Under the pieces are notes generated by a model. That model was given only the letters and a program-made list of their open reading frames with translations, did not search any database and was not told the DNA's origin. Of a stretch of 64,000 nucleotides of DNA, positions 5,805 to 36,266 are shown one piece after another. The translations under genes were made by a program, and so were the position numbers. How positions within the stretch are numbered: the first letter of the stretch is position 1; each line of letters opens with the position of its first letter. The DNA lies in the NCBI RefSeq assembly GCF_024464185.1, contig NZ_JANHAU010000001.1, positions 992,001 through 1,056,000 on the forward strand. Direction: 5' to 3'. The stretch comes from Haloarchaeobius salinus (GTDB taxonomy: Archaea > Halobacteriota > Halobacteria > Halobacteriales > Natrialbaceae).

Positions 5805-6446
5805 ATGTCATCGAACACGAGCCTCGAGAACTCGCGGCTGAACGGGACCGGTGTCGACGTGCGCTCGGCCGCCATCAGCGCGGGTGCCGGCGCGGTCGCC
5901 TTCGTGGCGAGCTACCTGGTGACGTTCCTGCTGTGGACCCAGACCGCACTCCCGGACCCGGAGACGTTCGACCAGGCCATCGACCAGGCGTTCGTCCAGT
6001 CGGTCCGCGACACCGTGCCGTCGTGGAAGGCCGCGGGGATGACGCTGTACAACGCCCACTTCGTCGACCTCACCTACAGCACGCCGTCCGGCTCCAGCGC
6101 GGTGAACCTCATCGACGCGGCCGGTGGCGGCCTCGTCACCTTCGCGCTGGCCGTGCCGCCGCTGTTCCTGCTGCTCGCGGGGTTCGTGGCGGTGTCCGTC
6201 GGCGACGTGACGACCGACCTGCCGAACGCGGTGGCCGCGGGCGCGCTCGTCCTCGTCGGCTACCTGCTGTTCGCGCTCGTCGGGACCGTCCTGTTCGGCC
6301 ACACCGAGACCGTCGAGTTCTTCGGCTTCTCGGGCCAGTACACCCTCAGCGTCCCGCTCGTCTCGACCGTCGTCTTCCTCGGCGTCGTCTACCCGGTCGT
6401 GTTCGGCGGTCTCGGCGGCGTCGGCGCGTACCTCCTGCAGAACTAG
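5805..6446 (+). CDS. Haloarchaeal four-helix membrane protein, function unknown
   Basis: A 213-residue membrane protein I do not recognise. Hydrophobic segments lie near residues 22-45 (AGAGAVAFVASYLVTFLLW), 105-130 (VTFALAVPPLFLLLAGFVA), 140-165 and 182-210. The 60-residue loop between the first two helices is predicted extracellular and contains Asp, Ser and Tyr but no cysteine. The N-terminal tail resembles a short disordered cytosolic segment. Its stop codon overlaps that of the convergent GNAT gene in a CTAG tetranucleotide. Confidence 0.7.
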   Translation: MSSNTSLENSRLNGTGVDVRSAAISAGAGAVAFVASYLVTFLLWTQTALPDPETFDQAIDQAFVQSVRDTVPSWKAAGMTLYNAHFVDLTYSTPSGSSAVNLIDAAGGGLVTFALAVPPLFLLLAGFVAVSVGDVTTDLPNAVAAGALVLVGYLLFALVGTVLFGHTETVEFFGFSGQYTLSVPLVSTVVFLGVVYPVVFGGLGGVGAYLLQN

Positions 6447-8755: not shown

Positions 8756-10093
8756 CTACTCGACGTACGTGTACTTCCGCTCGCCCATCCGGCCCCAGCC
8801 GTCGAAGGCGAACTCGCCCTCGGGCGTCGTGAACTCCTCCAGCTCCGAGTCCGTCTCGTGGTTGTGCCGGTCGTGGACCTGCTCGTACTCCGCCCACGAG
8901 AGGTCGTACCGCTCGGCGATCTGCTCGTCGACGTCGAGCGCCGCGATCTCGTCGGCCCAGCCGTCCTGGACGACCTCGCCGTGGATCTCGGCCTGCGCAC
9001 CCGAGCCGTAGGACGCGACGAGCATCGACTCGCCGGCCACGTCGCGGTCGGCCTCCAGCGCCGTCTTCAGCGCGGAGACGCGCGCGAGGTGGACCGAGCC
9101 CGTGTACCAGTTGCCAACGTCACGCGAGATGGTCAGCGTCGGGTCGACCGTCGCCGCGTACCAGTCCTGGTACTGCTCGGTCTCCTTCAGCGCGTCCATG
9201 TACTCGCGCACGGCCTCCTCGTACGCGCCGTCGTCGTCGAAGCTCTCGCGGCGCGGCTGGCGGCCGATGCCCTCCGCGAGCTCCTCCTCGACCGGCGTGT
9301 CGCGAGTGACGTGCCGGTACGCCAGCGCCGCCGCCTTCCGGACCATGCCCGGGTACGGCGTGTGGAACGGCGCGTAGATGAAATCGTCCAGGTGGACGTC
9401 GCCCGAGACACTCTCGTAGTCCTCCAGCGCCTCGCGCATCCGGGCGAGGTACACCTGCACCGAGCGCTTGCCGTCGACGCTCGGGAACTGCTGGTTCGGC
9501 TTCAGGAAGTCCGTCTCGTCCGCGCTGCCGTAGCCCTGGTCGGTCGACAGCTCGACCAGGTCCGGGTCCTCGTCGATGAGCATCGCGACCGCGCCCGCGC
9601 CCTGGGTCGCCTCGCCGGAGTCGTCACGCGCGTACAGCGCGGTGTCCGTGGCGACGACCAGCGCCGCACGACCCCGGTTCCGGCCCGCGCGGATCCAGTT
9701 GTACGCGTCGTCGATGCTCTGGGTGCCCGCGATGCAGGCGAACTTCCGCTCGCCCTTGTTCGCGTGGTGGAAGTCCCCGGCGTACACCTGCTCGAGACAG
9801 CCCGCGATGTACGTCGAGATGGGCTTGGAGTTGTCGAAGCTCGACTCCGTGGCCACGTCGATGCGGCCGATGTCGTCGGGTTCGAGCCCCTTCCGGTCCA
9901 TCAGCTTCTTCGACGCGTTCGCGCCCATCGTCACGATGTCCTCGTAGGAGTCCGGCAGCGACGATGCCCGCAGGCCCAGCCCCTTCGTGAAGTACTCCGG
10001 GTCCTTGCCCTTCTCCGTCGCGAACGTCTCGGCGAGGTCGAGTTTCAGGTTGCCCGTCCAGACTTCGACCGCGTCGATACCGACTGCTGTCAT
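8756..10093 (-). CDS. hmgB: Hydroxymethylglutaryl-CoA synthase
   Basis: A 445-residue thiolase-superfamily enzyme that condenses acetyl-CoA and acetoacetyl-CoA to HMG-CoA in the mevalonate pathway feeding archaeal isoprenoid lipids. The catalytic cysteine is Cys120 in FACIAGTQS. Other thiolase-fold marks are VGIDAVEVW at the start, YAPFHTPYPGMV (active-site His) in the middle and LVASYGSGAQAE near the C-terminus. Length and layout match other haloarchaeal enzymes. A TATA-like CAAATAG lies about 25 bp before the ATG on the minus strand. No coupled gene. Confidence 0.94.
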   Translation of the reverse strand: MTAVGIDAVEVWTGNLKLDLAETFATEKGKDPEYFTKGLGLRASSLPDSYEDIVTMGANASKKLMDRKGLEPDDIGRIDVATESSFDNSKPISTYIAGCLEQVYAGDFHHANKGERKFACIAGTQSIDDAYNWIRAGRNRGRAALVVATDTALYARDDSGEATQGAGAVAMLIDEDPDLVELSTDQGYGSADETDFLKPNQQFPSVDGKRSVQVYLARMREALEDYESVSGDVHLDDFIYAPFHTPYPGMVRKAAALAYRHVTRDTPVEEELAEGIGRQPRRESFDDDGAYEEAVREYMDALKETEQYQDWYAATVDPTLTISRDVGNWYTGSVHLARVSALKTALEADRDVAGESMLVASYGSGAQAEIHGEVVQDGWADEIAALDVDEQIAERYDLSWAEYEQVHDRHNHETDSELEEFTTPEGEFAFDGWGRMGERKYTYVE

Positions 10094-23765: not shown

Positions 23766-25619
23766 ATGACAGACGACAGCAGTCACGATTGGGGACGACG
23801 TACCTTCCTGAAGGCGACCGGTGCCGTGGGGGCGGCAGCAGCGTTCGCGGGACTCTCGTCCGCGACACCGTCGCGACAGCCGGGCCCTCGCCCGGACGAG
23901 ATCCTCGTTGGCGTCACGAACACGTACTCGGTGACCGACGTCGCGTCGACGACCGCGAACGACGAACGGCTCCCGGACGGGATGGCGGTCACGCACGAGA
24001 ACGACGACCTCAGCTACATGGCGCTCTCGAAGCCCGAGGTCACGACGATGTCGGACGACGACATCCTCGAGACGCTCGAGTCGCTCGAGCACGTGCGCTA
24101 CGCCGAGTTCAACGAGACGCTCCACGCGCTCGCCCAGCCGAACGACCCGCGCTTCGGCGATCAGTACGCGCCACAGCTCGTCAACGCGCCCGCCGCGTGG
24201 GACACCACGCTCGGCAGCGAGGAGGTCACCATCGCCGTCATCGACCAGGGTGTGAAGTACGACCACCCGGACCTGGCGGGCCAGTTCGGCTCGAACAAGG
24301 GCTCCGACTTCGTCGACGACGACGGCGACCCGTACCCGGACTCGATGTCGAACGAGTACCACGGCACCCACGTCGCCGGCATCGCCGCGGCGACCACCGA
24401 CAACGGCGACGGCATCGCCGGGATGTCGAACGCCAGCATCCTCTCGGGTCGTGCGCTCTCCGAGCAGGGCAGCGGCTCGACCAGCGACATCGCGGACGCC
24501 GTGCAGTGGGCGGCCGACCAGGGCGCGGACATCGTGAACATGAGCCTCGGGGGCGGCGGCTACACCGACACGATGAAGAACGCCGTCAGCTACGCGGCGG
24601 ACAACGGCGTCACCATCGTCTGTGCGTCCGGGAACGACTCCACGGGCACGATCTCCTACCCGGCGGCGTACGACGAGTGTATCGCCGTCGGCGCTATCGA
24701 CGAGAACGAGAACCTCGCGAGCTTCTCGAACTACGGCGAGAAGCAGGAGGTCGTCGCACCGGGCGTGAACATCCTCTCGACCTGGACGGACTCGCCGTAC
24801 AACAGCATCTCCGGCACGTCGATGGCGTGCCCGGCGGCGGCCGGCGTCGCCGCGCTCGGGCTCGCGGCGAACCCGGGCTGGTCGAACACCGAGCTCCGCA
24901 ACCAGCTGAAGAACACGGCCGTCGACATCGGCCTCCCCGAAGAGGAGCAGGGTTCGGGCCGCGTCGACGCGGCGAACCTCGTCGGCAGCACCGACGACCC
25001 GGACCCACCGGAGAACGAGGCCCCGACGGTGTCCATCGACGCCTCCTCGGCGACCGTCGAGGTCGGCCAGGAGGTCACCTTCGACGGCTCCGGCTCCAGC
25101 GACCCCGACGGCTCCATCAGCGCCTACGAGTGGAGCTTCGGCGACGGTACGACGGCGACGGGCCAGACCGTCACGCACGCCTACAGCGAGGCGGGCGACT
25201 ACAGCGCCAGCCTGACCGTCACCGACGACGACGGCGCGAGCACGACCGACTCCGTCGCCATCACCGTCGAGTCGGGCGACGGCGGCAGCTGCGGTGACGA
25301 GTCCTCGACTGGCTCGGCGGACGGCTACCTGTACGGCTACTACGACTCGGACGACTACACGTGGACGAACGATCTGCAGAACCCGTGCCAGGTCACCGTC
25401 TCGCTGTCGGGCGGGGACTGGTCCGACTTCGACCTGTACGTGACGACGGACGGGCGGACGCCCAGCACGTACGACTACGACCGACGCTCCATCACCCCGG
25501 ACAGCCAGGAGCAGATCACGCTCGACGACGTCGGTGCGGGCCAGCAGATCGGCATCCTCGTCGACTCCTACTCCGGCTCGGGCAGCTACACGGTCAGCGT
25601 CGAGGAGCTCGGCCAGTAG
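23766..25619 (+). CDS. Halolysin-type S8 serine protease 3 with PKD domain
   Basis: A 617-residue Tat-exported subtilase ([10 protein letters not shown]). The propeptide is the most divergent of the three (residues 40-125). Catalytic residues are D160 ([13 protein letters not shown]), H202 (YHGTHVAG) and S352 (SGTSMACP). A PKD domain (about 415-500) and a two-cysteine C-terminal domain (510-617) follow; the linker is short, acidic and proline-containing rather than polyglycine. It has its own promoter. The same fold order as copy 2 and a highly similar 3' third point to duplication plus sequence exchange. Confidence 0.92.
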
Positions 25620-25776
25620 GCCCTCCTCGCTCCGGGTCGAGCCTCGCGTCGAGCCCTCGCACGGCCGGGCAACACCGTTCGCCGAGGAGAGACTGTCTCG
25701 AGCCCGACACGACGGGATGCACGAACAGTCAGCCGTTTTCTTTAACTCTTTACGTCCCGGGGTCGACCGCCCCGAT

Positions 25777-26427
25777 ATGAGCAGTCCGCACATCCTCATC
25801 CTCGGTGCACCGGGCGCAGGCAAGGGAACCCAGTCCGCGAACATCGTCGACGAGTTCGGCGTCGAGCACGTCACCACCGGCGACGCGCTCCGCTCGAACA
25901 AGGAGATGGACATCTCGGACATGGACTTCGAGTACGACACGCCGGGTGAGTACATGGACGCCGGCGACCTCGTCCCCGACGCCGTCGTCAACGCCATCGT
26001 CGAGGAGGCGCTGTCCTCGGCCGACGGCTACGTCCTCGACGGCTACCCGCGCAACCTCGAGCAGGCCGAGGAGCTCGCCGACATGACCGAGCTCGACCTC
26101 GTCCTCTACCTCGACGTCGACCGCTCCGAGCTCGTGGACCGGCTGACCGGCCGCCGCGTCTGCGAGGACTGCGGCGCGAACTTCCACGTCAAGTACAGCC
26201 AGCCCGCGGAGGAGGGCGTCTGCGACGAGTGTGGCGGGGAGCTCGTCCAGCGCGAGGACGACACCGCCGAGGCCGCCGAGAACCGCCTCGACGTGTTCGA
26301 GGAGAACACGCTCCCGGTCGTCGAGTACTACGAGGGCACCGACGAGTTCGTCGCCGTCGACGGCGAGCAGGCCCCCGACGAGGTCTGGGCCGACGTGAAG
26401 GCCGCCATCGAGGCTGTCACAGAGTAA
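25777..26427 (+). CDS. adk: Adenylate kinase
   Basis: A 216-residue enzyme converting ATP and AMP to two ADP. The P-loop is [10 protein letters not shown] at residues 9-18; the AMP-binding segment includes TTGDALR and LDGYPRN (DGFPR-type). The LID contains a CxxC...CxxC set (CEDCGANFH and CDECGGE) typical of zinc- or structure-stabilised adenylate kinases. A longer in-frame frame begins 243 bp upstream but runs through non-coding sequence, so ATG 25777 is used. It heads a housekeeping block with an Oxa1-like protein, cmk and truB, a gene order common in archaea. Confidence 0.95.
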
Positions 26428-26463
26428 AAGACTCTTATCCCACGACTGCCAACAGGCTCTCAT

Positions 26464-27366
26464 ATGGCCTGGACGGCGGAACAGATACAGGATTTCCTCT
26501 CGGACAACCCCGGGACCTCGGAGGCGCTGCAGGTCGTCATGGACGCCTCCAACGACGGGGACGACGAGGTCGAGTGGAAGGACGTCAAGGACGAGGACGG
26601 AATGGACAGCGGCCGCTGGGGGCGACTCATCCAGAGCGAGATCCTGCGCGAGCAGGAGGACGGCTTCGTGGTCGTCGACCCCGACGCGGTCACGGACGCA
26701 CTCGACGACGACATCACCGTCGCGAGCGACCCCGTGGAGGTCGACAGCGAGGGGTCGAGCTGGACCCAGCGCGACAAGCTCGCCGCGGTCGTCTCCGTCG
26801 GGATGATGGCCGGCTACTACTTCAACCCCGTCAGGAACGCCGTCGGCGGGACCATCAACGTCATCTTCGAGCCGCTGAACGCGGTGCTCCCGTTCTACGC
26901 GGTCATCCTCGCCATCGCCCTCCTCACCGGGCTCTACTCGACGCTGCTGCAGGCGAACATGGTCGACCGGAGCAAGGTCAAGCAGATCCAGCAGAAGATG
27001 CAGAACATCACCGAGCGCGAGCAGGCCGCCAAGGAGGCCGGCGACGACGAGGCGCTCGACAGGATCCAGGACGAGAAGATGGACGCACTCGGCGACCAGG
27101 GCGAGATGATGAAGGAGAACTTCCGCCCGATGGCGTGGATCATGCTGCTCACCATCCCGGCGTTCCTCTGGATGTACTGGATGATCCTCGACGGCCACCT
27201 CGTCGCCGCCGAGCGGAGCATGGTGCTGCCCATCTTCGGCGAGCGCAACTGGATGGAGGGCGCTGTCGGCCCGATGCCCGCGTGGATCGTCTGGTACTTC
27301 CTCTGCTCGATGGGGTTCACCCAGCTCATCCGGAAGACGCTCGACCTCGACGCGACGCCGACGTAG
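26464..27366 (+). CDS. DUF106 membrane protein (archaeal Oxa1/YidC-like insertase)
   Basis: A 300-residue membrane protein with an acidic 100-residue cytosolic N-terminal region, then hydrophobic segments near 105-130, 142-165, 220-245 and 262-285. Between the second and third helices lies a charged, coiled-coil-like cytosolic stretch (KVKQIQQKMQNITEREQAA), the hallmark of the DUF106/EMC3/TMCO1 branch of the Oxa1 superfamily. Such proteins insert membrane proteins with weak hydrophobic segments. It lies 36 bp after adk and shares the conserved archaeal neighbourhood of adk, cmk and truB. Confidence 0.85.
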   Translation: MAWTAEQIQDFLSDNPGTSEALQVVMDASNDGDDEVEWKDVKDEDGMDSGRWGRLIQSEILREQEDGFVVVDPDAVTDALDDDITVASDPVEVDSEGSSWTQRDKLAAVVSVGMMAGYYFNPVRNAVGGTINVIFEPLNAVLPFYAVILAIALLTGLYSTLLQANMVDRSKVKQIQQKMQNITEREQAAKEAGDDEALDRIQDEKMDALGDQGEMMKENFRPMAWIMLLTIPAFLWMYWMILDGHLVAAERSMVLPIFGERNWMEGAVGPMPAWIVWYFLCSMGFTQLIRKTLDLDATPT

Positions 27367-27461
27367 GCGGCGCACACCCGCCCTCGACTGGCGGCGACCG
27401 CGGTATCGTCGCTCCGCCGTCCAATCACAACCCATTTTACCGACACCCGCGCAGATAGGAT

Positions 27462-28037
27462 ATGTTGCTCACCGTCTCCGGCCCGCCGGGCAGTGGCAAG
27501 AGCACCACTGCGGCCGGGCTGGCCGATGCGTTCGACCTCGACCACGTCTCCGGCGGCGACATCTTCCGCGAACTCGCCGACGAGCGTGGCTACACGCCGC
27601 TCGAGTTCAACAAGCTCGCCGAGGAGGACGAGGGGATCGACCGCGACCTCGACCGACGCCTCCGCGAGATCGCTGAAGAGCGCGACGACCTCGTGCTCGA
27701 ATCACGTCTCGCCGGCTGGCTCGCCGCCGAACAGGCCGACTTCCGCTTCTGGCTCGACGCCCCCCTCGCGGTACGGGGCGAGCGTATCGCGGACCGAGAG
27801 GACAAAGACCCCCAACTCGCCCGCGAGGAGACCGCGGCGCGCGAGTCCAGCGAGGCCCAGCGCTACCACGAGTACTACGGCATCGACATCGGCGACCTCT
27901 CCATCTACGACCTGAGCGTCAACACCGCGCGCTGGAACGCAGAGCACGTCCAGCACGTCCTCGTCGAGGCCGTCGAGTCCTACGACCCCGAGACCGACGA
28001 GGGGAAGGCACCGGTCGAGCTCGACTACGAGTTCTGA
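27462..28037 (+). CDS. cmk: (d)CMP kinase
   Basis: A 191-residue nucleoside monophosphate kinase phosphorylating CMP and dCMP with ATP. The P-loop is [12 protein letters not shown] at the very N-terminus, [13 protein letters not shown] forms the nucleotide-binding turn and [10 protein letters not shown] the acceptor segment; the LID contains RIADREDKD with catalytic arginines. This compact archaeal type is normal in length. A TTTTAC-type box lies about 29 bp before the ATG. The stop codon is three bases from the truB start, so the two are co-transcribed. Confidence 0.93.
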
Positions 28038-28040
28038 CCC

Positions 28041-28946
28041 ATGTCCCTGCGCGCACCGCCCGACGAGCGCTCGCCCGCCGAACTCCTCGAGTTCGGCGTC
28101 GTCAACCTCGACAAGCCCGCCGGCCCGTCGGCCCACCAGTTCACCGGCTGGTGCCGCGACGCCGTCGCCGACGCCCTCGATCGCGCCGGCAGCGACGCCA
28201 CCGTCGACGAGGCCGCCCACTCCGGCACCCTCGACCCGAAGGTCACCGGCTGCCTCCCGACGCTGTTCGGCGACGCCACCCGGCTCGCACAGGTGTTCCT
28301 CGAGGGCGCGAAGGAGTACGTCGCCGTGCTGGAACTCCACGGCCGCGCCCCGGGCGACGTCGAGGCGGTCGCCCGCGAGTTCGAGGCACCCCTCTACCAG
28401 AAACCCCCGCGGAAGAGCGCGGTCACCCGCCGCCTCCGGGTCCGCGAGGTCCACGACCTCGACGTGCTGGAGGTCGAGGAGCGCCGCGCGCTCGTCCGGG
28501 TCCGCTGTGAGTCCGGCACCTACATCCGGAAGCTCTGCCACGACCTCGGACTCGCGCTCGGCACCGGCGCGCACATGGGCCACCTCCGTCGAACCGCCAC
28601 CGACCCCTTCGACGACGCGACGCTCGTCAGCTACCACGACCTCGTCGACGCACTCGCGTTCTGGATCGAGGACGGCGACGAGGAACCCCTGCGCGAGGTC
28701 GTCCAGCCCGCCGAACGCGCGCTGACGCACCTCCCGCGCGTGGAGATCGCCCCCTCCGCCGCCGAGCAGGTCGCCAACGGCGCGCCCGTCTACGCCCCCG
28801 GCGTCATCGGCGTGGACGGCGGCGCGCAGGGCGACCTCGTGGCCTGCTACCTGCCCGGCGGTACCGCGGTGTGTCTCGGCACGCTCGTCGGTGACCCCGA
28901 CGCCGAATCGGGGACTGTCGTCGAACTGGAGCGGGTGCTGGTGTAG
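28041..28946 (+). CDS. truB: tRNA/rRNA pseudouridine synthase, TruB/Cbf5 type
   Basis: A 301-residue pseudouridine synthase; in archaea this is the Cbf5 catalytic subunit of H/ACA ribonucleoproteins, also able to modify U55 of tRNA. The motif GVVNLDKPAGPSAHQ starts the domain, the catalytic aspartate lies in HSGTLDPKVTGCLP, and CESGTYIRKLCHDLG is the third conserved block. From about residue 225 on is a PUA RNA-binding domain (LPRVEIAPSAAEQVANG). The gene sits at the end of the adk-cmk block immediately before tRNA-Pro. Confidence 0.92.
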   Translation: MSLRAPPDERSPAELLEFGVVNLDKPAGPSAHQFTGWCRDAVADALDRAGSDATVDEAAHSGTLDPKVTGCLPTLFGDATRLAQVFLEGAKEYVAVLELHGRAPGDVEAVAREFEAPLYQKPPRKSAVTRRLRVREVHDLDVLEVEERRALVRVRCESGTYIRKLCHDLGLALGTGAHMGHLRRTATDPFDDATLVSYHDLVDALAFWIEDGDEEPLREVVQPAERALTHLPRVEIAPSAAEQVANGAPVYAPGVIGVDGGAQGDLVACYLPGGTAVCLGTLVGDPDAESGTVVELERVLV

Positions 28947-28969
28947 CGTGGTGCCGACGAAACGACACG

Positions 28970-28976
28970 CTTAAAC
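28970..28976 (+). promoter_or_regulatory. TATA element of tRNA-Pro
   Basis: CTTAAAC centred 29 bp before the first base of the tRNA, the standard spacing for an archaeal tRNA promoter. Confidence 0.55.
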
Positions 28977-29001
28977 GGCAAACGGGCATCGGTTGACGTA
29001 C

Positions 29002-29072
29002 GGGACCGTGGGGTAGTGGTATCCTCTGCGGATGGGGTCCGTAGGACCCGAGTTCAATTCTCGGCGGTCCCA
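29002..29072 (+). tRNA. tRNA-Pro(GGG)
   Basis: A 71-nt tRNA without intron and without an encoded CCA end. The acceptor stem pairs GGGACCG with CGGUCCC; the anticodon stem UGCGG/CCGUA (one G-U pair) encloses the loop AUGGGGU with anticodon GGG at 29034-29036 after U33; the T arm is CCGAG-UUCAAUU-CUCGG. The D arm is short with a GG pair in the loop. The discriminator base is A73. Confidence 0.93.
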
Positions 29073-29405
29073 CTCGAAATTATCCAACTCTCCATCAACG
29101 GAGAGTCTGCCTACCCGAGACGCTCGAAAATACAATTCTCGGGTTCGGGACCTGTTCGCTGAACTACTCATATACCACCAGCGACGGCCTTCGGGGTGGT
29201 GCGCGTGAGCGCCGACCAGCTCGGCATCACGCCCGACGAACTCGGTCGGCGCGAGTACGAGAAGCCGACGAAATCCCGCCTACACCACGACCGACCGGAA
29301 ACGAGCCTAAAACCTCTCAACGAAGCGACGGACCGGGCGAAAGTGCCGCCGCTAACAGGTCAGCGCGCGAAAAATGGGGAAAGCGTACTGCAAATCCCCG
29401 AGCCG
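29073..29405. other. Region between tRNA-Pro and the pilin operon
   Basis: No gene that I can support firmly. An 8-bp perfect stem (ACCCGAGA at 29113-29120 with TCTCGGGT at 29137-29144, loop of 16) may form an RNA or DNA hairpin. A plus-strand frame from 29196 to 29438 (80 codons, many Arg, Lys and Glu) overlaps the pilin gene end and could be a remnant. Base composition is less GC-rich than the neighbouring core genes. Confidence 0.4.
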
Positions 29406-29885
29406 TTACGGAATCTGCGACTCGAAGATAATCTGTGAGTTATCACCAGACGACGAGGTCCACGTGATTTCCACAGCGTCTCCGGATTCGAACGTGTAGG
29501 AGTTACCGTTAGCGTCTTCCCCGAGTACAAGATCGGATCCAGCCGTAGTGCTGGTTCCCCACGTTCCATTCACAGGGCCAGTCTGGGTAGTCAGGTCGTC
29601 CGCGGTATTGCCACCGATGTTGACCGACAGCTGCGAAGCGTCGAACGAACCTCCGCCGTTATGAGCCACGATTACACGGTCAGTGTCCGAACTCGCGTCC
29701 GAGTAGTCGCTCGGGTACTCACCATTGAGGTTCGCCTGAGGTGCAGTCTCCTGATTTCCGCCGATGTTCAGGACAAACGCACCAATCACAGCCGCGAGGA
29801 TAACCGTAATTGCGACCATCAGGATAACCCCGATAACCGGTGACACGGCGTCGTCTTCTGTAAATAGTGACTTAATATCCATCAT
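29406..29885 (-). CDS. PilA-like type IV pilin (second in operon)
   Basis: A 159-residue archaeal type IV pilin; translation may begin at the first or second of two adjacent ATG codons. After a short charged leader ([11 protein letters not shown]) comes the hydrophobic domain [20 protein letters not shown], which is the highly conserved H-domain of haloarchaeal PilA adhesion pilins. The prepilin peptidase should cut just before it. The remaining 110 residues are a hydrophilic beta-rich head with Ser, Thr, Asp and Gly and no cysteine. It follows the next gene by six bases and the two share the first 50 codons almost identically. Confidence 0.92.
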
Positions 29886-29891
29886 GAGTTA

Positions 29892-30344
29892 TTACGGAAT
29901 CGTGGAGTCAGCGACGATCTGAGACTGATCTCCGGAGGACGAAGTCCACGTGATTTCGAGTGTGTCTCCAGAGCTGCCTCCGTGCGTGCACGGGTCCTCG
30001 TTGGAGAAGCCATTGCTGTTGTCGCCGTCGACAACCACTTCACCTGCCGAGAGTCCCGTTGCCGAACTGTTCGCCAGCTCGCAGTTGCTTCCGAAGTTCG
30101 ACGACAGCGAAAGCTTCGTGGCGTCCAGACTTCCACCGCCGCCGTGCGAAACGACGACATCAGATCCGCCGCTGCTGTATGCGAAGTCGAACTGGTTCTG
30201 CGGTGCCGTTTCCTGGTTCCCGCCGATGTTCAGGACGAATGCCCCGATCACTGCGGCGAGAATGACCGTGATCGCGACCATCAGGATAACCCCGATGACC
30301 GGCGACACGGCGTCGTCTTCTGTAAAGAGCTGTTTCAGTTCCAT
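29892..30344 (-). CDS. PilA-like type IV pilin (first in operon)
   Basis: A 150-residue pilin. Start ATG 30344 gives the leader [12 protein letters not shown] followed by the same PilA H-domain; a longer frame exists upstream but is not pilin-like. The head differs completely from the downstream pilin after the shared [11 protein letters not shown] boundary and has two cysteines (SNC and DPCTHGG) that may form a disulfide. Two pilins with the same membrane-core helix and different heads can be assembled interchangeably into a fibre (known for PilA families, inferred here). No prepilin peptidase or assembly ATPase is in the window. Confidence 0.92.
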
Positions 30345-30462
30345 AGTTGAGTTGAATCCCACACCGTGCGAGGCTCCACCGTCACGTCCCATGCGCGACG
30401 TCCGCCTGCCGGTGTTACCCGACCGACTACGATGACACCTCATAAACCCATCGGCCTATGAC

Positions 30463-30998
30463 GGATTTCGGACTATAACACGTCGTTACAATCCCCGTTC
30501 AGGGGGTGCTTGGATTCCATCAAGCCCCCATTGAAATCCACACAGATAGTTCAAAACTCCAAGAAACACCAGATTACCGATTCTGATACCGACCGCACCC
30601 GATTCATGGTCACGAAACTGGCACGTCAACACGGCGGCCAACAGGGTTATGTACGATTACCAATCGCGACGGTCGCGACTGCTCGCGCGCGCTCCTCTCA
30701 GAAACTGGTCGAGTGGGCCGCTCTTCACATCGACCCACCCAGCCAGGTGTGGGATAACGAGGATGGTGGACCCCGTTAAAGCCGAACGCTGGGACGTTCG
30801 GTACTCGAGGCGAAGTCCCGGTTATAGTTAAAGGTGTCCGAGCAGATTCCCCCGCTGACAACACCTCACCCGCTATCACTTCCACACGCAGTCGAGAACA
30901 CGGTTCGGACGACTCACCGCGCCCTCCCCGTCTGAAACCGCAATTCCGACGCTCTCCCGACGACTTTCACTGCACGCAGGAATTCGGACTATCACATG
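30463..30998. repeat. Imperfect 20-bp direct repeats flanking about 500 bp
   Basis: Copies at 30463-30482 and 30979-30998 differ at three positions and share the core TTCGGACTAT. Their spacing is 516 bp. They may be paired promoter elements or the footprints of an inserted segment. Confidence 0.5.
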
Positions 30999-31212
30999 AA
31001 CTCCTCTTCAGTCGCGGTCGTACTGGTTGCCGGCGGATGAGAAGGCGTTTCCGACGACGTTGTGGCAGGGGGTGCCCGAGGCATCGGTGTGGGCGTGGGG
31101 CAGGAAAGACACAGGTCCATCCCCGCATCACGGTTCATCTCGACGGACTCCCGTGTGCCGACCACCACCCCACAGCGTTTAGGCCGACCGAAAAATTGTA
31201 ACGTTCGTGATA

Positions 31213-31219
31213 GGATTTA
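31213..31219 (+). promoter_or_regulatory. TATA element of the ZIP transporter gene
   Basis: GATTTAT about 29 bp before ATG 31246, giving an almost leaderless transcript. Confidence 0.45.
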
Positions 31220-31245
31220 TCTCCGCCGAGCAGCTACCCTCACAC

Positions 31246-32199
31246 ATGAGCCTCGTGGGCAATCTCGTCGTCGTCTTCCTGGCCGGGCTGGCCACCGCGC
31301 TCGCCACGGGTCTGGGTGCGTTGCCGTTCTTCCTCGTCGACGACGTGAGCGACCGGTGGAACGTCGCGCTGTGGGGGGTCGCCTCGGGAATCATGGTCTC
31401 GGCGTCGCTGTTCGGGCTGATGAACGAGGGGCTCGCTGCGAGCGATGGCTTCCCGACCATCCTGCTCGCGGGTGTCGTCGTCGGGGTGCTGCTGGTCATC
31501 GTCGCCGACGACGTGCTCGACCGGGTCGACGTGGGGAAGTACGCGGACGACGACCCGGAGCGGGCGACCGACGGCGGGGCCGTGGACGGCATCCACGAGC
31601 ACGAGGAGGGGCACCACGACCACGCCGACGACGAGCACGACCACGATGGCGGCGGGCACGATCACGGGCACGCCGAGCTGGTCCACCCGGACATCGTCGC
31701 GGAGGGCGACCTGAAGAAGCTCGTGCTCGTGCTCGGTGTGCTCACCGTCCACTCGTTCCCGGAGGGCGTCGCCGTCGGCGTCTCCTTCGCGGACATGGGA
31801 CTGGCGGGCGGTATCGGCATGCTCGGGCTCACCGTGCCGGTGCTGGCGATCATGATGACCGTCGCCATCTCCATCCACAACATCCCGGAGGGGCTGGCCA
31901 TCTCCATCCCGCTGCGGGCGATGGGTGTCGGGCGCTGGCGGATGGTCGGTGCGGCGGTGTTCTCCAGCCTGCCCCAGCCCATCGGTGCGGTCATCGCGTT
32001 CGCGTTCGTCCGGAGCGCCCGCGAGTTCCTCCCGTTCGGCTTCGGGTTCGCAGCGGGGGCGATGGTGTTCCTCGTGCTGACCGAGTTCATCCCGGAGGCA
32101 CTGGAGGCGGGCGAGGGGCTGGAGTCGAAGGGCTATCCCGAACTCACTGCCGGGTTGCTCGGCGGCTTCGGCGTGATGGTCCCGCTGTTGTTCGTGTGA
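31246..32199 (+). CDS. ZIP-family divalent metal transporter
   Basis: A 317-residue membrane protein taking up or exporting Zn2+ or related ions. Eight hydrophobic segments can be seen; a cytosolic loop at about residues 115-150 is packed with His, Asp and Glu (HHDHADDEHDHDGGG), a typical metal-sensing or buffering loop. The signature helices carry VHSFPEGVAVGVSF and IHNIPEGLAIS, whose His, Asn, Pro and Glu residues form the transport site in the family. Start ATG 31246 is preferred to an earlier in-frame GTG/ATG, because it begins just before the first helix. Confidence 0.92.
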   Translation: MSLVGNLVVVFLAGLATALATGLGALPFFLVDDVSDRWNVALWGVASGIMVSASLFGLMNEGLAASDGFPTILLAGVVVGVLLVIVADDVLDRVDVGKYADDDPERATDGGAVDGIHEHEEGHHDHADDEHDHDGGGHDHGHAELVHPDIVAEGDLKKLVLVLGVLTVHSFPEGVAVGVSFADMGLAGGIGMLGLTVPVLAIMMTVAISIHNIPEGLAISIPLRAMGVGRWRMVGAAVFSSLPQPIGAVIAFAFVRSAREFLPFGFGFAAGAMVFLVLTEFIPEALEAGEGLESKGYPELTAGLLGGFGVMVPLLFV

Positions 32200-32222
32200 G
32201 CGTGACACGCCTGCGGCGTGCT

Positions 32223-32229
32223 TTTATAA
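32223..32229 (+). promoter_or_regulatory. TATA element of the DUF4097-like lipoprotein gene
   Basis: TTTATAA centred 25 bp before ATG 32251, indicating a leaderless message. Confidence 0.5.
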
Positions 32230-32250
32230 CTGTCCGTCGAACTGTCACGT

Positions 32251-33069
32251 ATGCGCCGCAGAACGGTCCTCTCGGCTGCCAGCATCGCCCTCCCCACCGC
32301 CCTCGCGGGCTGTAGCCTCCTCGACGGCGGGACGGAGGTGACCGAGACGGTCGACAGCCAGGTCGACGTCGCCGACGGGACGCCGGTCTCCGTCGTTGGC
32401 CAGAACGGCTCGATCCACGTGACGACGACGGACGCCGAGGCGGTCGAGGTCGAGGCGGTCAAACGCACCCGCGGTGGACGGGACGCGCTGGACGAGGTCG
32501 AGGTCCAACTCGACGAGTCCGGCGGTCGGCTCCGGATCCAGGCGGTGTACCCGGAGAACCGGGACCTACTCTCGCGGCCCGTCGTCGTGGACTTCGAGGT
32601 CGCGGTTCCGGCCGGCGTTCCCGTCGACCGTCTGGCGACGGGGAACGGTGCAGTGACGGCGAACGGCGTTGCCGGCGACGCCACCCTCGCCAGTTCGAAC
32701 GGGTCGGTCACGGCCGAGGACGTCGACGGCTACGTGAGCCTGCGGACGACCAACGGGAGCATCGACGCCACCGGTGTCTCGGGACCCGACCGCGCGGTCA
32801 CCACGAACGGAGCGGTCGACGTCGAGCTCCGGGCGCTCCGCGGCGACGTGCCCGTCGAGACGACGAACGGCGACGTGACAGTCCGCACCGCCACGGACCT
32901 CGCGGCGACGTTCGAACTCGAGACCAGCGTCGGCGACGTGTCGGTCGATGGGCTGTCGCTCGACCGCTCGACCGACGGCTCGGACCGGGTCGTCGGCGAC
33001 CTGAACGGCGGCGGCGACCGCGTCACTGCCGAGACGACGAACGGTGACGTGACGCTCCGGACGCTCTGA
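32251..33069 (+). CDS. DUF4097-like beta-repeat lipoprotein
   Basis: A 272-residue exported protein: a short basic start (MRRRT), a hydrophobic stretch and a lipobox ending ALAGC at Cys23, so it should be lipid-anchored outside the membrane. The rest is a run of short beta strands in repeats such as TTNGSIDATG, TTNGAVDVEL and TTNGDVTVR, the pattern of DUF4097 putative-adhesin beta-helix domains. Function in the family is unknown. The end is 9 bp from a convergent gene. Confidence 0.82.
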   Translation: MRRRTVLSAASIALPTALAGCSLLDGGTEVTETVDSQVDVADGTPVSVVGQNGSIHVTTTDAEAVEVEAVKRTRGGRDALDEVEVQLDESGGRLRIQAVYPENRDLLSRPVVVDFEVAVPAGVPVDRLATGNGAVTANGVAGDATLASSNGSVTAEDVDGYVSLRTTNGSIDATGVSGPDRAVTTNGAVDVELRALRGDVPVETTNGDVTVRTATDLAATFELETSVGDVSVDGLSLDRSTDGSDRVVGDLNGGGDRVTAETTNGDVTLRTL

Positions 33070-33078
33070 CTCCGCGGA

Positions 33079-33519
33079 TCACCAGTCCAGCTTCCGTTCC
33101 CGGTCGTCACCCTCGTCGAACTGGCGTTCAGCCTCGGGGTCGTCGAGCAGCAGGTCGAGCCGTCGTTCGAACTCCACTTCGTCTATCTCGCCGGCGACGT
33201 ACCGCTCGCGGAGCCGAGCCGCCTCGCTGGCTGTGTCCTCGACCCTGGTGTCGGCGGTGGCCTCGACCGACGCGTCCGCCTCGAACCAGTCCGACGCGCC
33301 CCCTTCGTCCTCGCCGTCGCCCCCGACGAACAGCGACAGGAGCCCGACGGCGATTGCGCCGAACAGAACGACCAGCCCCAGCACGACGACCGCGGTGAAC
33401 ACCGTACTGAGGACGCCAAGGACCAGCCCGACGACGGTGGTGACGACGCCGAGGATGACCAGCAGCACGAACGCCCAGACGAGGAGTTGGAGGACCGTAC
33501 CGCTGAACGAGCGTCCCAT
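33079..33519 (-). CDS. SHOCT-domain small membrane protein
   Basis: A 146-residue protein with two hydrophobic helices (about residues 8-60) and an acidic C-terminal half. The C-terminus contains the SHOCT motif (RLRERYVAGEIDEVEFERRL), a short helical module often found at the end of membrane or enzyme proteins and thought to mediate oligomerisation. Start ATG 33519 was chosen because it directly precedes the first helix; the open frame extends further upstream through the divergent gene. Confidence 0.8.
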   Translation of the reverse strand: MGRSFSGTVLQLLVWAFVLLVILGVVTTVVGLVLGVLSTVFTAVVVLGLVVLFGAIAVGLLSLFVGGDGEDEGGASDWFEADASVEATADTRVEDTASEAARLRERYVAGEIDEVEFERRLDLLLDDPEAERQFDEGDDRERKLDW

Positions 33520-33636
33520 GTTCGACTGTCGGACACGCGTGGGCAAAAAGCTTCGACCGACACCCGGAACAGACAGGTTTCGTACAAAAACGGGTTTCAG
33601 CGAGCGCTTTAGTTGCCACGTCCGGTATCCCGGTTC

Positions 33637-34218
33637 ATGAGACGGAACGTACACGTGCTCGGGCTCTCCGGGAGTCTGCGCGACGACAGCGGTACGCGAA
33701 CGGCGATACGACGGGCCCTCGCGGCGGCGGACGCGGCGGGTGCCACGACGGAACTGCTCGACCTCCGCGAGTACGACCTCCCGCCCCGGGACGGCGACGA
33801 CGCCGACGCCGGGGATGCAGCCATCCTCCGCGAGCGGGTCGCGGCCGCCGACGCCGTGCTGCTGGGCTCGCCGGTGTACCACGGCTCGTACGCCTCGCCG
33901 CTGAAGACCGCACTCGACTACTGCGGCTCGGACGAGTTCGACGGGACCACCGTGGGCCTGCTGGCGGTCGCGGGCGGAAGCTACCCGACGCCGACGCTCG
34001 AGCACATGCGGGCGGTCGCGCGGGCGGTCGGCGCGTGGACGCTCCCCCTGCAGGTCGGTATCGGCGACGCGGGCTCGGCGTTCGCGGGCGGCGATCTCGT
34101 GGACGAGGACCTCGGCGAACGCGTGGACCGACTCGGCGAGGAGCTGGTCGCCTACGCGGGCGTGGACTCGTACCCGACGACCGTCTCCGAGCCGTTCGAC
34201 CCGGTGGCGGGGGTCTGA
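33637..34218 (+). CDS. NADPH-dependent FMN reductase-like flavoprotein
   Basis: A 193-residue flavodoxin-fold protein. The FMN phosphate loop is LGLSGSLRDDSGTR at the N-terminus and the second flavin-contact segment is LLGSPVYHGSYASPLKTALD, both typical of the NADPH-dependent FMN reductase family. These reduce flavin, azo or quinone substrates. ATG 33637 was chosen over an upstream ATG because residues before it are absent from the fold. Its TGA overlaps the ATG of the arylamine N-acetyltransferase gene (TGATG), so the two are coupled. Confidence 0.88.
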   Translation: MRRNVHVLGLSGSLRDDSGTRTAIRRALAAADAAGATTELLDLREYDLPPRDGDDADAGDAAILRERVAAADAVLLGSPVYHGSYASPLKTALDYCGSDEFDGTTVGLLAVAGGSYPTPTLEHMRAVARAVGAWTLPLQVGIGDAGSAFAGGDLVDEDLGERVDRLGEELVAYAGVDSYPTTVSEPFDPVAGV

Positions 34219-35024
34219 TGGACACCGACCGCTACCTCGAACGCATCGGGGTCGACCCCACGACCGTCACCCCCGGGGCCATCGACCTCGACACCGTCGC
34301 TCGCCTTCAGCACGCCCACGTCGGGGCGGTCCCGTTCGAGAACCTCGCCATCGTCGGCGACCCCTTCGACGACGCGACCGACGGCGAGGGCGTCGTGCTC
34401 GACCTCGGGCACATCCACGAGAAGGTGGTCGAGCGCCGGCTGGGCGGCTACTGCTTCGAGCTGAACGGGCTGTTCGGCTGGCTGCTCGGCGAACTCGGCG
34501 TCGACACGCACCGGGTCGCGGCGCGGGTCGTCGGTGACGACGGCACCGGTCGACCACCGGCGAACCACCACACCAACGTCGTCACGTTCGACCGGCGCTT
34601 CCTCGTCGACGTGGGGATGGGCATCCCGACGATGCGCCGGCCACTCCCCGTCGACGGCGAGGTCGTGACCGACAGCGCGGGCGTCGCCTGGCGCGTCGTC
34701 GAGAGCGACCGCCCCGACGAGACGCACCTGACCCAGTACCGCAGGCCGGGCGAAGCGGCGTGGCGGGACCGCTACCTGTTCACCGACGTCCCCCGCGAAC
34801 TGTCCTACTTCGAGGCGACCTGTGACTACCTCCAGAGTGCGCCGGAGTCGCCGTTCACCGGCGAGCCCGTCGTCAGCGTCGCGACCGACACGGGTCACGT
34901 GAAGCTGAAGCGGGACACGCTCGTCCGGTACGAGGGCAACGAGCGCTCCGAGGAGCCCGTGGCAGCCGAGGACTGGCACGACGTGCTTGCACGGCGGTTC
35001 GGCCTGCAGTACCGGACGGCGTGA
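34218..35024 (+). CDS. Arylamine N-acetyltransferase
   Basis: A 268-residue NAT-family enzyme that transfers acetyl groups from acetyl-CoA to arylamines or hydrazines through a cysteine. The catalytic triad is visible: Cys in RLGGYCFELN (about residue 78), His in NHHTNVV (about 117) and Asp in FLVDVGMG (about 132). The opening YLERIGVDP is standard. Translational coupling to the flavin reductase suggests joint handling of aromatic amines or nitro/azo compounds (reduction, then acetylation); this is inference. Confidence 0.92.
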   Translation: MDTDRYLERIGVDPTTVTPGAIDLDTVARLQHAHVGAVPFENLAIVGDPFDDATDGEGVVLDLGHIHEKVVERRLGGYCFELNGLFGWLLGELGVDTHRVAARVVGDDGTGRPPANHHTNVVTFDRRFLVDVGMGIPTMRRPLPVDGEVVTDSAGVAWRVVESDRPDETHLTQYRRPGEAAWRDRYLFTDVPRELSYFEATCDYLQSAPESPFTGEPVVSVATDTGHVKLKRDTLVRYEGNERSEEPVAAEDWHDVLARRFGLQYRTA

Positions 35025-35051
35025 ACGGCGTATCGCGACGACACCGTCCCC

Positions 35052-36266
35052 TCAATCCGAAGGCGTCGCTCCTGCGGGCTGACCGCTCCCGGAGCCCTCA
35101 CCACTTCGGACCGGTCGCGTGAGGATCCAGAGGATGCTGGCGGCGACCACGAGGACCGCACCCGCACGAGGGAGGAACGCGAGCGGCCCCAGCCGCTCCG
35201 CGATGCCGCCCAGCGCGAGCTTCAACAGGCCGCTCGAGAGCGACAGGACCATCGAGACCCCCGAGAGGACCGTCGCACGCCCCACGTCCGCGAGCCGGTC
35301 GTTCAGGTACTGGTTCTGGACCGGCTGGACGACCGACCGGGCGCTCCGGTAGAGGAAGAACGTCGGGACGAGGAACACGGGGAACAGCGCCCCGAGGACG
35401 AACGCCACGGCGAACAGCGGGACGAGCAGTCCGAGCACGCCGCGCGCGCCGAGGCGCTCCTCGAACCAGCCCGCCGTCGAGGCCGCCCCGGCGGAGACGA
35501 GCTTGAACGCCGCGAAGACGACGCCGAGGCCGGCGACCGGCAGCCCGAGCGCGTCCAGCGCCGGCTGTTCTACCATCCGGGCGAGTCCGAACAGCCCGTA
35601 GAACAGCGCGACGTAGGCGACCAGCCAGCGGACGCTCTCACGGCTGGCCTGCACGCGGAGCATCTGGACCGCCTCCCGCACCGTGAACACGTCGGCGTCC
35701 TCCTCGTCGACCCGGATGGACGGGAACGTGTACAGCACCGGGACGCCGGAGACCGCGAGCGCCGCGCTGAGCAGGAACGGGAGCTCGTAGGCGACGCCGT
35801 AGAGGACCCCGCCGGCGATGGCCGCCACCGCCGAGGTGAGGAGCAACACGGTGCTGCCCCGGCCCTTGATGCGGGCGAACTCGTCGTCGTCGCAGGTGCG
35901 GGCGAGCAGCTCGTAGAGCCAGGCGTCGCCCGTGCCCGAGCGGAACGCCCAGCCCGTCGCCCAGACGACCTGCATCGCGACGAACCCGATGGGCGTGTCC
36001 ACGAACGCGTAGCCCGCCATCCCCGCCGCCCGGAGCAGACTGCCGACGGCCAGACTGGCCCGCCGGCCGATTCGGTCGCCGAGGTACCCCGAGGGGATCT
36101 CGGCGGCCAGCATCGCGAGTGAGAACGTCGCCTGCACCAGCGCGACGAACGCCAGCCCGAACCCCTGGTCCAGCAGGTAGAGGACGCTGATGGGCAGGTA
36201 GAAGCCGGCAGAGTTCGTCGCGCGGAACAGGTAGTACCGCCGCACGACCGATTCGTCCGTCGCCAT
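35052..36266 (-). CDS. Major facilitator superfamily transporter
   Basis: A 404-residue integral membrane protein with about twelve hydrophobic segments. The N-terminal half carries the MFS loop motif in GYLGDRIGRRASL between helices 2 and 3. The central cytosolic loop (residues 180-205) is acidic. Substrate unknown; the best comparison is with drug- or sugar-type MFS exporters. ATG 36266 follows an AT-rich upstream patch. It is convergent with the N-acetyltransferase gene. Confidence 0.88.
   Translation of the reverse strand: MATDESVVRRYYLFRATNSAGFYLPISVLYLLDQGFGLAFVALVQATFSLAMLAAEIPSGYLGDRIGRRASLAVGSLLRAAGMAGYAFVDTPIGFVAMQVVWATGWAFRSGTGDAWLYELLARTCDDDEFARIKGRGSTVLLLTSAVAAIAGGVLYGVAYELPFLLSAALAVSGVPVLYTFPSIRVDEEDADVFTVREAVQMLRVQASRESVRWLVAYVALFYGLFGLARMVEQPALDALGLPVAGLGVVFAAFKLVSAGAASTAGWFEERLGARGVLGLLVPLFAVAFVLGALFPVFLVPTFFLYRSARSVVQPVQNQYLNDRLADVGRATVLSGVSMVLSLSSGLLKLALGGIAERLGPLAFLPRAGAVLVVAASILWILTRPVRSGEGSGSGQPAGATPSD

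Follow-up and report, generated by a model that had tools for sequence, protein, structure and literature searches.

The locus analysed here raises the question of how a pair of pilin genes came to stand behind a tRNA gene in Haloarchaeobius salinus, and whether the distal parts of these pilins, the heads, can be exchanged against a constant N-terminal core. The window, by which we mean the whole analysed stretch of 64,000 nucleotides, contains the two genes in tandem on the minus strand with a spacing of 6 nt: p1 (30344..29892, 150 aa, two cysteines in the head) and p2 (29885..29406, 159 aa, with a start at 29885 or 29882). The initial annotation, made from the sequence alone, had described a two-pilin operon with identical cores, and this description holds. 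Both proteins match the Pilin_N profile PF07790 (E 9e-24 and 2e-22 for p1 and p2), and their signal/H-domain blocks are identical across 44 residues. Together with a match to TIGR02537, this identifies the N-terminal domain of archaeal type IV pilins, with its class III signal and conserved H-domain. Moreover, p1 matches the pilin chain of PDB entry 8fj5 at E 3e-24. By analogy, p1 and p2 can be regarded as haloarchaeal PilA-type adhesion pilins, which would be incorporated into a pilus and would serve in adhesion.

The same annotation had called the two heads unrelated, which is refuted by 48 identical residues among 95 aligned (51%) and by 74% DNA identity over the final 81 nt of both genes. 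It had further suspected a disulfide in one head. Such a bond is plausible in p1, judged from its two head cysteines, and the pair is also present in all five pilins of the relatives G002 and G004, so that six of seven pilins possess it and it is absent only from p2. At the DNA level the p1 and p2 cores are 83% identical across 147 nt and 86% across 38 codons, and the core synonymous divergence between the two genes is about 1 (dS 0.98). Gene conversion that keeps both cores identical within the genome is thereby rejected; it is therefore protein constraint that keeps the cores alike.

A conserved core with variable heads is already known from pilins. Two studies on Haloferax volcanii describe for PilA1-PilA6 a nearly identical H-domain, different heads and assembly by PilB3-C3, which is encoded elsewhere, and state that each PilA pilin alone can form pili (PMC4371748, PMC6491452); the identical H-domain and the unlinked pilBC genes are hence known PilA traits. 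Also the variability of pilA loci between Haloferax strains has been described (PMC7921747). The genome of H. salinus has ten PF00482 (PilC-type) matches, nine of them over the cut-off, and all ten lie outside the window, in line with the earlier remark that assembly machinery is absent nearby. The window operon and PilA1-6 are thus alike in their conserved core and different heads, whereas the window operon is located in a tRNA island and shows a measured synonymous step between core and head.

The island becomes apparent from the comparison of four close genomes, G000 (the genome of the window), G002, G004 and G005 (Haloarchaeobius iranensis). The closest named relatives in the scan were H. 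iranensis and Haloarchaeobius sp. FL176, with truB 96% and 94% identical. The genes cmk and truB, the tRNA-Pro gene and a ZIP transporter gene are common to all four genomes, and the DNA in between differs: between tRNA-Pro and ZIP the window has the pilins, G002 genes for an M23 peptidase and an HTH protein, G004 a 94-aa ORF and G005 a universal-stress gene. The left border is the tRNA-Pro(GGG) gene itself (29002..29073, plus strand, by ARAGORN), and the right border lies at 31149..31175, upstream of the ZIP transporter gene. Homology to G005 ends at 29072, one base short of the tRNA end, and is back at 31149; G002 shares the DNA up to 29143 (the first 70 nt after the tRNA) and again from 31164; G004 shares it, with a small insertion, up to 29267 (about 190 nt after the tRNA) and again from 31175. 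Accordingly, the truB–tRNA-Pro side and the ZIP side are colinear in the three close relatives and most of 29074–~31150 is replaced, as expected of a genomic island with its border at a tRNA 3' end, which is sharp for G005. That tRNA-Pro(GGG) borders a replaceable segment is supported by this. A right-hand copy of the tRNA end (attR) was found neither at the right end of the window island nor at that of the G004 insert described below, and the sole same-strand match to the tRNA end in the window is of 10 nt, about 60 nt past the tRNA and within the range of shuffled sequences. At the tRNA-Pro locus of G004 (L071), the last bases of the tRNA recur about 60 nt downstream (GGTCCCACTCGAAATT), like a nested insertion scar, and G036 is similar.

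Immediately behind the tRNA, 29074..29204 is a sequence with small hairpins which in a 13-genome alignment resembles the DNA after tRNA-Pro in relatives that carry genes of the SNJ2 type there. It may be native, since G002 and G004, without SNJ2-type genes at this place, partly have it. It is followed by the start of a small ORF (29205..29300, plus strand, VSADQLGITPDELGRRE...) that is probably truncated, as fuller zinc-finger-like copies lie directly after tRNA-Tyr in G004 and G005. This ORF is 59% identical across 27 aa to a copy at the tRNA-Pro of G004 and resembles the first ORF after the G004 tRNA-Tyr, whose own similarity to SNJ2 gp25 is weak; the longer G005 relative has no match in the phage collection. 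A relation of the ORF to gp25 is suggested by its position, with weak support from the sequence.

On the other side of the pilins, a 0.9-kb gene-poor tract had been noted. Indeed, 30345-31245 contains no convincing genes, but its pilin-proximal ~520 nt are a conserved leader or upstream region (30345..30867, minus strand) that is common to the pilin operons of relatives, as defined by homology to L126 and L125. The stretch 29736-30867, which comprises the p2 start, p1 and the ~520 nt leader, matches the L126 operon of G004 with 74%, and 29736-30694 matches the L125 operon of G002 with 73%. Within the leader, a 33-nt element (30520..30552, minus strand) is conserved in all five Haloarchaeobius genomes that have the operon, the pattern being derived from the sequences of those same five genomes and the G004 copy needing six differences. 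The exact pattern has one match in its own genome, and wherever the element is present, it precedes the H-domain codons by 241-263 nt. This near-fixed distance is kept wherever the operon sits, and an operator or an RNA element are candidates for its nature. The promoter and terminator scan used bacterial models and is uninformative for an archaeon.

The lower GC content beside the pilins, which had also been pointed out, is confirmed (0.575 for 29074-31150 vs 0.684 for the window). GC3 is 0.73 in p1 and 0.62 in p2, with 0.93 in truB, and six related pilins elsewhere have values of 0.63-0.80. As related pilins elsewhere are similarly low in GC, the composition does not prove a recent transfer; it reflects a property of pilins as much as it hints at transfer.

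Two of the three close relatives, G002 and G004, carry a related pilin operon with the leader elsewhere. In G004 the sequence agrees with that of G000 as far as the final base of tRNA-Tyr and then continues with an insert of about 3.49 kb with three pilins; at the same tRNA-Tyr place there are 41 nt in G000 and about 590 nt of other DNA in G002. G000 and G004 are thus reciprocal, each filled where the other is not. In a wider set of 58 truB-centred loci, consisting of the window and 57 relatives drawn from 77 relatives with truB, 12 have pilins at most 7 kb downstream of truB (seven on the minus and five on the plus strand). It had been stated at the outset that a swapping cassette would be contradicted if all relatives carried these pilins at this site with a core-like composition; with 12 of 58 occupied loci and a composition that is not core-like, this is not what was found. 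Among 80 named truB-centred loci, of which seven have under 8 kb downstream and six are the same places as loci of the first set, pilins occur within 8 kb downstream in four and in none of the upstream flanks.

These counts are also what would be expected if a chromosomal pilA operon of the ordinary kind had long stood beside a tRNA that is often used for integration, had been relocated or lost through ordinary rearrangements, and had met pleolipovirus-type elements there by coincidence. That such pilins are common in haloarchaeal genomes and are found also on 17 plasmid records fits this explanation as well. It is less easily reconciled with the G004 block, which is inserted where another tRNA ends, and with the occupation of the site by different pilin lineages. 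In a FastTree phylogeny the pilins at the tRNA-Pro site are spread over several lineages, so that the site has probably been filled more than once, the support printed for the deeper clades of the window being low (0.45-0.81). In the same tree, the window pilins group with chromosomal Haloarchaeobius pilins and not with those of SNJ2 or of L266.

The link to viruses comes from SNJ2, a pleolipovirus with two records that is the one virus in the phage collection with a PilA-type pilin. Its gp10 has 22 residues in common with the window pilins, and a gene in divergent orientation to gp10 encodes gp09, which matches the profile of the gp09 family at E 3e-100. The SNJ2 record labels gp09 and gp10 as hypothetical, and the PHROGs families that match the pilins and the gp09-type proteins are annotated as "unknown function". 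The SNJ2 stretch L297:5587-6600 contains two tandem PilA-type pilins (tree entries 5637 and 6122), the first alone being an annotated CDS in the stretch shown. At L266 (G030), tRNA-Pro is followed by homologues of gp25, gp23, gp22, gp16, gp15, gp14, gp13, gp12 and gp11, two pilins on the minus strand, and homologues of gp09 and gp04. This is the SNJ2 gene order with the pilins at the place of gp10 and in the orientation seen in the window, and L254, L232 and L253 have the same core gene order around two pilins. That the L266 pilins behind tRNA-Pro are part of an SNJ2-ordered element argues against a coincidental neighborhood of a chromosomal operon and such elements.

The SNJ2-type integrases point in the same direction. 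At E<1e-10, 10 of 56 pilin-centred loci have one, compared with 0 of 57 and 2 of 80 truB-centred loci (Fisher 9e-5 for 10/56 vs 2/137), where the truB-centred controls are shorter regions and not random places. The count of 10/56 omits seven loci (L210, L230-L235) that were picked when a recombinase near them or within ~10 kb was already known; with them it becomes 16/63. L075, a truB-centred locus with pilins, has an integrase match at E<=1e-3. According to a study on pleolipoviruses (PMC7911831), the attachment site lies between the integrase gene and a gene for a CxxC protein, and related proviruses are found at tRNA genes; after integration, the CxxC gene would consequently stand beside the tRNA. 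Among the 58 loci, 46 have tRNA-Pro within 3 kb of truB, and in 14 of these 46 the start of a gp25-like gene is no more than 400 nt away from the 3' end of the tRNA. The CxxC-type protein from L272 had no match among phages.

In the window itself, a search of all 64 kb with 20 of the 25 SNJ2 proteins (gp05, gp06, gp17, gp18 and gp19 being left out) matched only with gp10, and the matches are the pilins; neither an integrase nor a structural gene, as would define an SNJ2-type provirus, was thus seen among the 20 proteins. No trace of the divergent gp09-type gene was detected in 25001-36000, and a scan of viral contigs with p1 gave no confirmed match. The lack of a remaining viral gene favors the chromosomal operon described above. 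The tRNA-Pro loci show a range of states: L266 has the SNJ2-ordered element with pilins; L079, L083, L089 and L111 have several SNJ2-type genes, with pilins not seen in the stretch; L105 has gp25 and gp09 remnants with pilins; L090 has a gp25 remnant with pilins; L103 has gp09, pilins and a truncated recombinase; the window has pilins and a short first ORF; and L068 and L070 have pilins only. These states possibly form a decay series, the order of which we infer from different species.

Taken together, we favor, with a probability of roughly 0.6, that the locus is the relict of an integrative element of the kind of SNJ2 (a betapleolipovirus), in which the pilins were kept as the rest decayed, with the operon and its leader residing in the tRNA-Pro(GGG) island and with heads replaced by recombination. 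The copy in the window would then be of viral ancestry. Weighing the same data, we consider a long-resident chromosomal operon with coincidental viral neighbors rather unlikely. SNJ2 or related proviruses and the window are alike in their PilA-type pilins and the tRNA site, with the difference that the window has the pilins alone; neither an integrase nor gp09 nor a structural gene was detected in it. What is new here are the SNJ2-type genes behind the same tRNA-Pro, the two pilins inside the SNJ2-ordered element of L266 and the PilA-type pilins of SNJ2. Among the titles and abstract openings covered, none dealt with pilins in pleolipoviruses or with an exchange of archaeal pilin heads.

The second part of the question, the exchange of heads, was addressed by counting, among codons for identical residues, those that use a different codon, in the p1 core (codons 1-~50) vs the rest, with a Fisher test. 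For G000-G002 the counts are 7/45 in the core vs 26/57 in the rest (p 0.0014; truB 49/282), for G000-G004 8/45 vs 28/59 (p 0.0018; truB 52/279) and for G002-G004 4/47 vs 20/53 (p 0.0008; truB 47/284), a step that concerns one gene in three species, the three pairs having been predefined by leader homology. The core thus diverges at the synonymous rate of the housekeeping gene truB, and the rest is near saturation. Corresponding dS values for the same three pairs are 0.22, 0.25 and 0.12 in the core and 1.4, 1.9 and 1.1 in the head, and DNA identity falls from 93-97% at nt 120-159 to 38-55% at nt 160-199. Because codons 1–~50 evolve at the housekeeping rate and the rest is near saturation, the p1 heads have probably been replaced relative to the core, and recombination between core and head appears as the simplest account of these codon counts. 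The pair G001-G003 is borderline (14/45 vs 16/29, p 0.053), and for the p1-p2 pairs within genomes the step is not significant (p 0.09, 0.44 and 0.33). A wider scan gave 13 pairs, nine with p<0.05, which had been selected for low core divergence, so that distant ones can be chance. Among 392 genomes of the order, close relatives of the p1 head are confined to G000, G002 and G004, with one weak match in G244.

Could the heads instead have diverged in place, under strong diversifying selection or local hypermutation and without any exchange? The high dN of the head (about 0.45, compared to 0-0.02 in the core) would agree with this, but dS also jumps at the end of the H-domain, from 0.12-0.25 to 1.1-1.9, which protein-level selection alone does not do. 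A control pilin locus of the same genus (L237, L238, L255) shows no such jump, with 6/40 vs 16/80, 7/40 vs 17/68 and 7/39 vs 19/73, from which it follows that the low core divergence is not simply a codon constraint of pilins and that pilins do not generally have such divergent heads. Furthermore, no PF00078 reverse transcriptase match was obtained in the genome at E<=0.001, and hence there is no diversity-generating retroelement. Divergence in place is therefore judged improbable.

Even less credence is given to a programmed switch, in which silent head cassettes or an invertible module would change the expressed head within a lineage. The model is suggested by the pilin blocks of G001 vs G003 and of G011 vs G038, which are inverted relative to each other between colinear flanks, by short tyrosine recombinases near some pilin clusters, and by a 24-nt inverted repeat around the module at L210. 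Searches for its components argue otherwise. With the p1 head as the only query, no silent donor cassette was found in G000 at E<=1e-6, the head matching p1 and p2 alone. Convincing inverted repeats are absent from the window, G001, G003, G011 (tRNA-Pro site) and G038, and of 13 modules compared with shuffled sequences, 11 have a best flanking repeat that stays within the shuffle maximum, which is exceeded clearly in L210 and by one point in L222. A model of inversion between such repeats is accordingly not supported. In Neisseria, pilE/pilS antigenic variation leaves the N-terminus constant and varies the C-terminus; the window differs from it in that no silent copies of the p1 head were found and that an exchange would take place between strains and not within a genome. 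The initial idea of a cassette that swaps pilus heads thus survives on the evolutionary time scale, with the island replaced and the synonymous step in p1, and is not borne out as a present-day switching device.

For the favored replacement of heads by recombination, a mechanism can be proposed. As in Haloferax PilA, the prepilins would be processed by PibD and assembled, through the invariant H-domain, by PilB/PilC encoded elsewhere, so that a pilin with any compatible head could join the pilus. The leader and the signal/H-domain part of the first gene would stay put, and the DNA past about codon 50 would be replaced by homologous recombination with DNA of other strains or elements, among which we infer the donor of the p1 head. 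In such a process the invariant H-domain would act as the constant arm for recombination and at the same time would keep any head acceptable to the machinery. The exchange would occur between strains or elements over evolutionary time and not as ongoing switching, and its consequence could be an altered adhesion or an altered attachment of viruses. A related case are the homeocassettes of Halorubrum ezzemoulense, which PMC11078007 describes as islands that are homologous yet divergent and lie between the same core genes, with a type IV pilus system as one pair and tRNAs near the islands. As presented there, whole islands differ between strains of one species, whereas in the window case the step lies inside one gene and is seen across species.

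In a broader and tentative proposal, considered less likely than not, temperate SNJ2-type pleolipoviruses would carry a module in which PilA-type pilins are joined by a divergent gene resembling a regulator, and would deposit this module at the tRNA genes of haloarchaea; hosts would keep the pilins when the provirus decays, the H-domain would offer the homology arm for new heads, and the viruses would constitute a shared reservoir that rewrites adhesion and perhaps the virus-receptor surface. Haloarchaea maintain sets of pilins in which a single core is combined with many heads, and a core/head break in one gene across species makes domain exchange testable. The finding that pleolipovirus-type elements at tRNA genes carry PilA-type pilins supplies a possible vehicle and would explain why some pilin operons adjoin tRNAs. 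If true, virus integration, surface adhesion and the choice of virus receptors would be linked in archaea. A general rule of pilins beside tRNAs is weakly supported: away from truB there are 8 tRNAs in 213 kb within 2 kb of pilins vs 11 in 517 kb at 2-8 kb, counted in 54 of the 63 pilin-centred loci after nine without a pilin by a stricter pattern were dropped. The tRNA-Tyr(gta) beside ftsZ lies within 1.5 kb of four of these 54 pilin clusters (L126, L217, L230 and L252), in four genomes of different genera.

The divergent gene of the pilin module belongs to a family of ~260-aa gp09-type proteins with a match in 21 of 63 pilin-centred loci. Its genes start 203-558 nt from the pilin H-domain codons in 30 of 35 matching loci, some of which are overlapping copies of one place. 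Members are found at L222:4393-5187, L231:6999-7781, L223:7158-7958, L210:6574-7413, L103:3023-3808 and L297:4474-5262. Five members had no Pfam match above the cut-off, two that were tried belong to phrog_14115 of unknown function, and one of four showed a weak NCBIfam match to an RtcB intein (E 4e-4), in addition to weak HTH signals in the family. The intein match hints at descent from a homing endonuclease, and the proteins are candidates for regulators of the pilins. The AlphaFold model of the divergent gene product from L187 alone reached a pLDDT of 43.

The pilin clusters at L222, L231, L230, L210, L103 and L223 each have a short XerA-like tyrosine recombinase, truncated in L103, at a distance of less than 2 kb. 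At L210 (G011), the arms of the 24-nt inverted repeat (6073-6096 and 10006-10029, one mismatch) enclose the divergent gene and three pilins, and one arm is located inside the gene of the short tyrosine recombinase; this locus is possibly an invertible pilin module.
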